In this document: positions 17,312-26,383 of the stretch, piece by piece | Layout of the letters: each line of letters starts with the position of its first letter | Numbering within the stretch: position 1 is the first letter of the stretch | Assembly (NCBI RefSeq): GCF_003586445.1 | Contig: NZ_CP030028.1 | Location: forward strand, 3,424,501-3,488,500 | Length of the DNA stretch: 64,000 bases | From: Bacillus sp. Y1 | GTDB lineage: Bacteria > Bacillota > Bacilli > Bacillales > Cytobacillaceae | Direction of reading: 5' to 3' | Position numbers and translations under genes: made by a program | Notes under the pieces: generated by a model | The model's input: only the letters and a program-made list of their open reading frames with translations | Told to the model about the DNA's origin: nothing | Database searches by the model: none

Positions 17312-20185
17312 TTATAGACCACACTTTAACTGTGCGTTACAGTTTGTACAAGTGTTACAGCCACCGATTTCTTTTACTTTTCCTTTACGACATACAGGAC
17401 AAGTATTTCCAACTTCAGAACCAATAGTCACATCTGTTGAACGAAGATCCGAAATGGTATCAACTAATACTACATGTGTTTTCTCCACATTTGGCTCAAA
17501 TTCATCAACCGTATTTTCTTCTGCCTTAAGTGTTAATACCTGGCTATCACGTGATCCATCCACATAAACGGTACCACCCTTGGCTCCACCGCGGTATAGA
17601 CGCTCATACACCTTTTCTACCTGCTCAACGCTATATCCTTTTGGTGCATTTACTGTTTTACTAATTGAACTATCAATCCATCTTTGGATGACACATTGTA
17701 CGTCCGCATGCGCTTCAGGTGAAAGCTCCATCGCTGACACGAACCAGCTTGGTAATTGGTCAGGATCCGCTTCTGGATTACGGTCAAGATAATCTTGTAC
17801 AATATCTGCTTTTACTTCAATAAATTTCCCAAGACGTCCGCTGCGGAAGTATGAGAATGAGAAGTATGGCTCAAGACCCGTTGAAACACCAACCATTGTT
17901 CCAGTAGATCCTGTAGGAGCTACTGTTAACAAGTGAGAATTACGAATTCCGTTTTCTAGAATAGCTTCTCTCACATGCTCAGGCATCTTTTGCATAAAGC
18001 CCGTTTGCGTAAATGCTTGACGAAGACGATTCGTTTCTACATCTGTATTCCCTACAAGGAACGGGAAGCTTCCTTTTTCCTTCGCCAGTTCAACAGATGT
18101 TTCATACGCTGTCGTTGCAATCGTTTCAAACACTTTATCAATAAGAACATTTCCTTCTTCCGAACCGTATTCTGTCTCACAATAAATCAGTAAATCATGT
18201 AAGCCCATTACACCAAGTCCTACACGTCTTTCCCCTAATGCTTGGTTCTTATTGTCTTCAAGGAAGTATGGAGTTGCATCAATAACGTTATCCTGCATAC
18301 GAACTCCTACTGCGACCGTTTGTCTTAACTTTTCAAAATTAACCGTTTTTGTCTCTTTATCTGCCATCTCCGCTAAGTTAACAGCAGCAAGGTTACAAAC
18401 GGAATATGGTGCTAGTGGTTGTTCTCCACATGGATTTGTAGCTACTACTTGTTGACCATATGCTTTTGCATTTGTCATGTCGTTTGCGTTGTCGATGAAG
18501 AAAATTCCAGGCTCAGCTGAGTATGTCGCACAGATGTTAATAAGATTCCATAATTCTTTTGCTTGGATCTTTCTGTACACTCGTACTTTATGGCCTTGTT
18601 TTTCCCACTCACGAACGTCCCCTACTTTATGCCACTCTTCGTTGTAAATTTTCATTTCCTCAGCATCGTAGCTTTCCACATCTGGGAAACGAAGTTCGTA
18701 CACAGTATCATTTTCAACTGCTGTCATAAACTCTTTCGTTAAACAGATAGAAATATTCGCACCTGTTAAGAATTCCGAGTTATGAACCGAGAAATTCCCT
18801 CCAGTAGTAAGCTTTTCTTCAGCGTCTGCAATGTTTTTCTCAGAAAAACCACCATGACCTGGAATCGTTTTGTAATTAGCAATTCCTTGGTACATAGAAC
18901 GCTCACTCTCTGTAAGAGGAGAAAACTTTAGTTTTTCTTTCGCATATTTTTTAATCGTTTCATCTTTTGTTGTCTCAAGTAAGAAACGAAGAATTCTTGG
19001 GTTTTGCATTTTTGAAATAATGAATTCAATAATGTCAGGATGCCAGTCCGCTAACATGATCATTTGGGCCAAATATGTTACGTTGATTCGTTACATCAAC
19101 TCTTTAGGTCACCCTAAAGTTCAGACCATATCTTACACTCTAAGAGTGTCCTCGCGCTTCGGAATCACTTGATCCCTACTCTACTCACTTCCACATATTG
19201 TGTGTTTTCGATGGTCGTTGGACCTTTCCCATTTTAAAGGGACTTGGCTGCTGATTGTCTTTTTCCACTTGCTGTTTTCAAGCGTTCACGTTTACCGTTT
19301 CCAGTTACGTTGTAGCCAGCAAGTCATGCATAAAGAGTTTCCAGCATTTCACGAGGTTTTTTTAGAGACGAGGCACACTTATGCTACTTTACCACGTCTT
19401 GATCCACCTTGCTCTACCAAATGCGTTAACTTTGCAATATCATCTAACCACGATACTGAACCAGATGATTTGCCGTTTACTCCACGAGCAAGTGTGTTTC
19501 TTGGTCTTAGGGTTGAACCATTCGTTCCAACTCCACCACCACGACTCATGATTTCCATTACTTGCTTACGATGCTCTGAAATTCCTTCACGAGAATCTTG
19601 AACAAATGGCATAACATAACAATTAAAGAATGTTACTTCTGTTCCAGCACCTGCTCCATAAAGAACTCGTCCTGCTGGAATGAAATTTAAGTTAACTAGT
19701 TCCTGATAAAACTTCTGGAACCATTCAGCCTTCTTTTCTTCTGTTCTCTCTACTGAGGCCAAGCCTGTTGCGTTGCGTTTCGCAATTTGCTCATAGAACA
19801 CTTCCAATGGCTTTTCAATGACATCAAGTGAACGATTAATAACTCCTGTACTAGCTTCTTCCGGGTCATCTAGAACACCTCTAAACTCCTCATCAACAAG
19901 CACTTTAGCCATCTTTTGGTCCCAATCAATTTCAAGAATAAATCCAAGACCTCTCGCAGGAAACTTTGGATCTTCTTTAATTGTAAGAACAACAAAATCT
20001 CCGTTCGATAATGTTAGCTTTTCCGTATCTTTAAATGTATAACGGTCAAGCATAACAAGTCTTGATACCCCTTTATGAGTAATCTTCATATCTGGGGTTA
20101 CTGGATGCACCTGAGGAAACAAGCTAATATCCTTGTTCAAGCTCTCGACATCAATATTCATTTTTTTTCTAAACGCAACAGACAT
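17312..20185 (-). CDS. nrdJ: Vitamin B12-dependent ribonucleotide reductase, split by a group I intron
   Basis: Two exons: 20185-19391 (265 codons) and 19069-17312 (585 codons plus stop). Joined, they give an 850-residue class II reductase that makes deoxyribonucleotides using adenosylcobalamin. The junction reads SRRG|AQMIMLADWHPD, the unbroken family sequence. The first exon has the FFNCYVMP cysteine. The second has NPCGEQPLAPY, the APTGSTG loop and a C-terminal zinc ribbon (CPVCRKG, CNTCTNC). Without splicing, translation stops three codons into the intron (KVA-stop). The start ATG follows AAAGGAG by 8 bp. B. subtilis lacks this gene. Confidence 0.93.
19070..19390 (-). ncRNA. Group I self-splicing intron in nrdJ (321 nt, subgroup IA-like, no ORF)
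   Basis: The boundaries fit group I rules: the 5' exon ends in U (19391) and the intron ends in G (19070). P1: exon GACGUGGU with guide GCCUCGUC, ending in a U.G wobble at the splice site. P3: CCUCGUG (19356-19350) / CGCGAGG (19156-19150). P4: UGCUG (19346-19342) / CAGCA (19253-19249). P5: ACUUGCUG / CAGCAAGU. P7: GACCA (19216-19212) / UGGUC (19128-19124), with AAGAUAUGGUC as the S box. P8: ACACUC / GAGUGU. P7.1 CACA/UGUG and P7.2 GGGAUC/GAUUCC place it in group IA. P9 hairpins CUUUAG/CUAAAG and GUUGAU/AUCAAC precede the end. No endonuclease gene. Confidence 0.92.
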
Positions 20186-26051: not shown

Positions 26052-26212
26052 TGGCACCTGAAAGTTTACCGTTTGGCTGTCCCCTTTGGTGGCTTCAAAT
26101 GAATGAAGCGCTCTCCAGAGCTGCGTCAAACAAGAGTTCTTTTGCCTGAGAGATTCACAAATTTTTGTTTGCTCCTTCGGCGCTACTTTGAAGTAGTCTC
26201 TCCCCTTGTTCT
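26050..26212 (-). ncRNA. Tandem glycine riboswitch
   Basis: The reverse strand shows both aptamers of the gcvT-type riboswitch. Aptamer 1: GGGGAGAGAC, GCGCCGAAGGAGCAA and AATCTCTCAGGCAAAAG. Aptamer 2: GAACTCTTG..., CTCTGGAGAGC, CCACCAAAGGGG and AAACTTTCAGGTGCCAGGAC. The linker is short, as usual. It is followed by a terminator hairpin and then gcvT, so glycine should turn on the cleavage operon by antitermination. Confidence 0.95.
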
Positions 26213-26383
26213 CATTCGCATTATAAAAATTCCTAATTTGGATAATACTAAGCTGTACTTATAGAACATTCGTCAAAATAAATTATAATGTGACAAATTT
26301 CAAAACTTTTAAGATATTATCATCCTACCATTTCGAAACCCATACGGCAATATATTTATCGATCAAAAAAGGGAGTTGTTTTT

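Follow-up and report, generated by a model that had tools for sequence, protein, structure and literature searches.

Group I introns are known from several ribonucleotide reductase genes. The portions of the literature drawn on here describe them for nrdE, nrdF, nrdB and nrdD of phages, next to inteins in environmental nrdJ genes and a Thermus phage nrdJ that is split by 12 nt (PMC3653736); a second source names introns of recA, nrdE, nrdF and flagellin genes, and nrdJ does not occur in the sections drawn on (PMC3984707). More than 100 group I introns in reductase genes have been curated (PMC2795772), and as the genes are unnamed in the portion of that text consulted, earlier nrdJ cases may be among them. 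Within the open-access literature searched, part of it as excerpts, we found no description of a group I intron in a bacterial nrdJ. This fits the statement in a first-pass annotation of the sequence that a well-described case is not known, although such introns are common in sequence data (see below).

The closest described systems, as far as the consulted parts of the sources go, are: i) the introns in the class Ib genes nrdE and nrdF of Bacillus, its prophages and related phages, likewise group I ribozymes within a reductase gene, some of which carry an endonuclease gene and some of which do not (PMC3653736, PMC3984707), whereas the host here is a chromosomal class II gene, nrdJ, and the phage introns share core parts only; ii) the flagellin introns of thermophilic Bacillus and Geobacillus, which interrupt genes on Bacillus-like chromosomes in the same manner but differ in gene and site (PMC3984707); iii) the c-di-GMP riboswitch-group I intron of Clostridium difficile, also a ribozyme in a bacterial message (PMC3984707), from which the nrdJ intron differs in lying inside the coding region and not in a 5' untranslated region, and in having no Rfam aptamer; and iv) the EDxHD homing endonucleases such as I-Bth0305I (PMC3943268, in part), to which we liken the DUF559 ORFs in three relatives of the present intron (L024, L026 and L035), the gene being absent from the copy studied here.

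We analysed a stretch of 64,000 nucleotides of Bacillus sp. Y1 (the window), in which nrdJ lies in two halves (Table 1). Sequence comparison confirms that the interruption is a group I intron, which most likely removes itself from the RNA and is very probably an endonuclease-free descendant of a mobile intron spread by homing and transfer, with a host effect that is probably near-neutral. The first-pass annotation had placed the halves 321 nt apart and joined them in frame by removing 19070-19390, and these coordinates proved exact: exon 1 ends in ...TCAAGACGTGGT at 19391, exon 2 starts with GCCCAAATG at 19069, and excision of 19390-19070 leaves one open frame (...GGSRRG|AQMIM...), the insertion separating the Gly codon from the Ala codon in GGSRRG|AQM. 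The joined protein of 850 aa matches class II reductase models, i.e. NCBIfam PRK08115 (vitamin B12-dependent ribonucleotide reductase) over residues 2-850 (1691 bits, cut-off 854) and TIGR02504 (593.7 bits, cut-off 399.95). A cut moved by one base yields an identical protein (GGG in place of GGT), so that the reading frame alone is insufficient to fix the splice site, which is fixed by the U.G pair and the last G. Counted from the GTG, the intron follows codon 267 (265 when counted from the ATG). In our reading of the alignment the site lies between residues 209 and 210 of Thermotoga maritima NrdJ, six residues past Q203, which like K202 belongs to loop 2, the link from the effector site to the substrate site (PMC3267527, in the part drawn on). 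One practical consequence is that nrdJ genes of this kind are cut in two by ORF callers, as happened in the ORF list of the window. A site shared with class I was considered, since the alignment places GGSRRG|A of NrdJ opposite GQRQG|A of NrdE. The only nrdE split looked at, that of Listeria phage AG20, lies near residue 455-457, and this single case gives a shared site no support.

Table 1. Features of the interrupted nrdJ gene (positions in the window)
Feature	Position	Strand	Basis or remark
nrdJ exon 1	19391..20185	minus	ATG at 20185; frame open already from GTG 20191; ORF list, start region
nrdJ exon 2, through stop codon	17312..19069	minus	ORF list, joined frame
Group I intron of 321 nt, ending in G (19070)	19070..19390	minus	RF00028 and same-site alignment
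In-frame stop TAA, three codons into intron	19379..19381	minus	End of exon 1 ORF at 19379
P1 exon strand AGACGUGGU	19391..19399	minus	Hand-drawn structure
P1 internal guide GCCUCGUCU	19366..19374	minus	Hand-drawn structure and pair counts
P3 5' strand, partner 19156-19150	19350..19356	minus	99.3% of cells paired; both-side changes in 3/7 pairs
P4 5' strand, partner 19254-19249	19341..19346	minus	100% of cells paired
End of P5 and loop; endonuclease-gene position in relatives	19325..19332	minus	Mapped onto window by alignment
P7 5' strand, partner 19129-19124	19211..19216	minus	98.0% of cells paired
S-box AAGAUAUGGUC with P7 3' strand	19134-19124	minus	Read from sequence
P7.2 hairpin	19161..19176	minus	98.4% of cells paired; both-side changes in 5/6 pairs
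P8 hairpin	19135..19149	minus	96.4% of cells paired; both-side changes in 6/6 pairs
P9 hairpin	19102..19119	minus	97.6% of cells paired
P9.1 hairpin	19082..19100	minus	97.2% of cells paired

The covariance search on the reverse strand that had been proposed in the first-pass annotation gave a match of RF00028 (group I intron) to 19400-19102 on the minus strand (81.5 bits, E 3.7e-19, cut-off 50); the match stops at 19102, so that the Rfam model covers neither P9.1 nor the final 32 bases. On the window RNA we could draw P1, P3, P4, P5, P5a, P5b, P6, P6a, P7, P7.1, P7.2, P8, P9 and P9.1. Structural support was sought in an alignment of 42 same-site introns, taken from the 44 that do not exceed 420 nt (two were left out: L047, which nearly duplicates L037, and L070, which has 399 nt including an insert). 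In these 42 the hand-drawn P1-P9.1 pair in 94.7% of 3388 cells, against 34.5-42.0% for slid partners, and 43 of the 81 pairs show changes on both sides; the P3-P8 and P4-P6 core with the P7 guanosine site is supported by covariation, with both-side changes in one P7 pair and three P3 pairs. The intron also folds better than 100 of 100 dinucleotide shuffles (z -3.28). The claim of a group I intron inside a class II nrdJ at GGSRRG is in this way borne out by the covariance model and the covariation, together with the uninterrupted orthologues and the many same-site relatives described below. Present as well are the individual elements that had been listed, namely P1 (8 pairs, one mismatch), P3, P4, P5, P7, P7.2, P8 and the S-box, but the P7.1 that was listed with them, although it can be drawn, is a weak helix (58.9% of cells paired). 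P7.1 and P7.2 between P7 and P3 define subgroup IA, and the intron may be IA-like, having P7.2 and probably P7.1.

Of the nine positions of P1, seven are Watson-Crick pairs, one is a U.U mismatch and one is the splice-site U.G, which corresponds to the 8 pairs with one mismatch of the first-pass annotation. This U.G is found in 42 of the 42 aligned introns, though 33 of them were picked by a pattern that fixes it, and the near-invariance of P1 as a whole has to be read with the same 33 rows in mind, that pattern fixing most of the helix; the U.U mismatch, at positions that the pattern leaves free, is kept in 40/42. Among all 60 same-site introns with set boundaries the first three bases are AAA without exception and the last base is G in 57 and A in three (3/60), the A-ending copies being counted against the preferred reading. 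From this anatomy we infer that the window intron is spliced from the nrdJ message: a guanosine held by P7 would attack the U.G splice site in P1, and exon 1 would then attack after the terminal G, restoring the NrdJ frame. Were the intron instead defective and nrdJ a decaying pseudogene in this strain, the uninterrupted class I reductase of the genome and the mismatch in P1 would find an easy place, but each exon has an open frame, congeners with an uninterrupted gene encode an NrdJ that is 98-99% identical, the core helices are all intact and the mismatch is the common state at this site, which makes decay hardly credible. As a separate observation, the three introns ending in A (L009, L035 and L058) may be defective or use another 3' site.

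The pairing of guide and exon could be followed in the spelling of the codons. The spelling AGACG(T/C)GGT occurs in 42 of the 42 aligned intron-bearing genes, being imposed by the pattern in 33 and independently true in nine; among 32 orthologues that carry no intron here, most of which are those nearest to the window's NrdJ, it occurs in five and CGCAGAGGN in 15. An nrdJ paralogue on a plasmid record of Priestia megaterium (L134; NZ_CP045273.1, 846565-852839) has an intron at the same codon, with exon CGCAGAGGU facing guide GCCUCUGCG in nine pairs, U.G at the splice site included, so that its spelling CGCAGAGGT is matched perfectly by the guide; this intron scores 40.4 bits against RF00028, under the cut-off of 50 (E 7.2e-08). 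The change on both strands is independent support, from one locus, for P1 as predicted. A pattern for the CGCAGAGGT version of the guide had no matches in 397 genomes of the order, and the compensated version accordingly rests on one locus. An arms race at the allosteric-loop codons of NrdJ, with AGA CGT GGT open to invasion, CGC AGA GGN closed to it, and one intron lineage having re-fitted its guide, seems to us an unlikely scenario. Upstream of this paralogue lies a cobalamin riboswitch (RF00174, 70.3 bits), and the gene is interrupted a second time at codon 483.

Relatives at the same site are numerous. An exact pattern of exon, intron start and guide, run on GTDB species genomes, found the same junction in 55 stretches, from genera including Rossellomorea, Oceanobacillus, Lentibacillus, Gracilibacillus, Sutcliffiella, Sporosarcina, Domibacillus, Virgibacillus and Neobacillus. 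These 55, the window and nine loci from blastn make up 65 for which boundaries were tried, and both could be set in 60 (the remainder being L027, L056, L062, L072 and L117). Within the window's family, blastn with the intron gave some match in 89 of 193 genomes, several of the partial ones that were examined lying in flagellin genes or at other nrdJ sites; essentially the whole element was present in 17/193, once in two pieces (our count of the blastn matches listed). The spliced NrdJ found a match in 185 of the 193, of which 86 have one uninterrupted copy (our count, again of the matches listed); some of the remaining 99 are perhaps broken merely by contig ends. In the window's own genus the intron is absent at this codon from all four genomes searched (4/4): nrdJ is uninterrupted in two (G003 and G004); in a third (G001) codon 275 is the site of a 1128-nt interruption that contains an HNH endonuclease ORF; and in the fourth (G002, 66% complete) the gene is interrupted at codon 483, where Rfam had no match over cut-off in the interruption.

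Further sites are used in the same gene: 12 of the 55 named loci have another break at codons 482-484 (10 of them with both flanks covered) and five have one at 654/655, and in one locus (L120) two RF00028 introns are no more than about ten codons apart. NPCG lies next to the 482 site and APTG|S next to the 654 site, motifs that we take to be part of the active site. Inteins and group I introns of the small-subunit gene are mainly found near radical and metal residues, according to the part of PMC8772380 drawn on, and the nrdJ sites seen here parallel that pattern. In Bacillus-like bacteria nrdJ is a hot spot where such introns often lodge, the gene being interrupted near codons 265, 267, 275, 482 and 654; the window intron is neither unique nor a new class of element, but belongs to a known kind of mobile element. 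In two loci (L046 and L054) nrdJ is broken at three places, near codons 267, 482 and 654, and three genomes (G016, G138 and G184) have a second, uninterrupted NrdJ-like gene of ~830-835 aa that is 71-72% identical to the window's NrdJ.

The same-site introns (n=60) fall into nine of more than 1 kb, eight of 399-752 nt and 43 of 309-354 nt. The window intron has no endonuclease gene and, at 321 nt, is too short for one. Four of the nine long introns were scanned for endonuclease ORFs and all four have one with a domain over the Pfam cut-off: DUF559 in L024, L026 and L035, with a resemblance to Vsr that stays below its cut-off, and LAGLIDADG in L077. The three DUF559 ORFs would, on sequence resemblance, be EDxHD enzymes. 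The extra DNA sits at intron nt 57-61, the end of P5, in 15 of the 17 long and intermediate introns compared, the exceptions being L061 and L077, and L035 has a second insert. A close comparison is offered by Sutcliffiella horikoshii and its close relatives, where a 920-nt insert in L073 (ORF of 227 aa, against 308 aa in L024) is missing at the same base from L031, L042, L048 and L060, the introns being 97-98% identical outside it. The nine long copies require 8 changes on the exon tree, which is not below the expectation for scattered labels (118 of 500 shuffles as low), and the tree cannot tell gain of the endonuclease from loss. The window copy looks to be descended from an intron that moves horizontally, and its lineage would have lost the endonuclease gene from the P5 loop, loss appearing the better reading than gain; that no relative of the DUF559-type ORF of L024 was found in the window's genome is counted against the preferred reading. 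At site 267 living genomes hold introns with an endonuclease gene, with shorter inserts and with none, and this variety opens the cycle of gain, decay and loss proposed for homing introns to direct test in bacteria that can be cultured.

Transfer was examined by comparing intron and exon phylogenies. Each tree fails the AU test on the alignment of the other (p 1.6e-54 for the exon tree on intron data, 5e-5 for the intron tree on exon data), a conflict that rests on a short alignment of 317 columns; 10 of 39 splits are shared, and of the 13 strongly supported intron splits 4 are at odds with splits that the exons strongly support. Distances in intron and exons are weakly correlated (r 0.19), a value as high in 102 of 2000 permutations, and this residual correlation is counted against the preferred reading. 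On the exon tree of 92 rows, in which the 30 uninterrupted ones taken from the spliced-NrdJ search are those closest to the window's NrdJ and not random, the pattern of presence and absence takes a minimum of 10 changes (well supported branches force 5), fewer than the mean of 26.8 for shuffled labels. One row, L039, is broken in its exon (end branch 10), which makes its tree position meaningless; its intron is long and stood outside the intron-exon tree comparison. That the intron is ancient at this site, inherited vertically and lost many times with little transfer would suit its presence at one codon in many genera, its clustering on the exon tree and the lack of a conversion tract (see below), but it is doubtful in view of the mutual rejection of the two trees and the contradicted splits. 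Homing is what we infer as the means of spread: the intron would have spread at this codon among Bacillus-like bacteria by homing at the DNA level and by horizontal transfer.

A donor was looked for in several ways. A conversion tract left by recent transfer was suggested by 20 differences in 200 nt between the window and its uninterrupted congener G004 at gene nt 600-800, just before the site, but was rejected as evidence after a five-genome alignment in which none of the window-only substitutions (0/21) falls in nt 601-861. That no donor-derived tract was found beside the window copy argues against very recent homing from a distant donor and is counted against the preferred reading. No donor was found among phages: 201 of 50,697 phage records share part of the intron and none covers 80% of it; the phage matches to exon 2 reach at best 68% identity, and the exact junction pattern had no matches in IMG/VR. 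Plasmids gave two matching records among 72,556, one of them the Priestia nrdJ paralogue, which at 70.9% is too distant. That no donor was found in the phage, plasmid and viral-contig records is likewise counted against the preferred reading.

The first-pass annotation had further proposed that the intron gates dNTP synthesis. The window's genome encodes a class I reductase. Its large subunit is uninterrupted (C1:579485-581077, 504.5 bits, no internal stops), its small subunit lies at C1:581245-582066 (261.4 bits), and NrdD had no match in the genome; splicing of nrdJ is consequently unlikely as the only gate to dNTPs. The Rfam gathering search of the window gave the intron, a glycine riboswitch (26124-26215) and one tRNA (tRNA-Gln by ARAGORN), and no known aptamer next to or inside the intron. 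With the class I genes present, the intron missing at this codon in the four congeners searched and no Rfam aptamer at nrdJ, the proposal lacks support. A stop codon follows exon 1 in its own frame within the first five intron codons in 44 of the 60 same-site introns, against 6/60 and 2/60 in the other frames, and within the first 19 codons in 60, 51 and 37 of 60, respectively, counts in which the 60 introns share descent and are not independent cases. According to the portion of a review drawn on (PMC3073962; also PMC3984707), ribosomes translating into introns can hinder splicing, and in the simplest reading the early stop keeps ribosomes out of the intron core. The same stop would end translation of an unspliced message, and a loop 2 residue in the allosteric pathway lies six residues before the site, features that would fit a domesticated switch in which growth-state-, translation- or ligand-dependent splicing sets the NrdJ level. 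We hold such a switch to be quite improbable, given the points raised against a gate and the uninterrupted copy in 86/193 family genomes; the common stop, moreover, is explicable by shared descent alone, besides shielding splicing from ribosomes. An intron that is probably near-neutral to its host is the reading that we prefer.

Some observations concern other features of the genome. A second RF00028 intron (L001; G000:C1:4639276-4639612, minus strand, 88 bits) lies at the 3' end of a flagellin gene, and the core of the nrdJ intron is ~74% identical to this flagellin intron over 97 nt. A complete C-terminus (QPQGVLQLLR-stop or similar) is already encoded upstream of L001, and the same end is encoded a second time downstream of it. 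Outside nrdJ and the class I genes, a reductase large-subunit domain is partially matched in a long open frame (L133; G000:C1:3833873-3834226, minus strand; PF02867, 39.3 bits, positions 203-318). The glycine riboswitch of the window (RF00504, minus strand, 73.6 bits) has one aptamer over cut-off and is located upstream of ORFs resembling a glycine cleavage operon.
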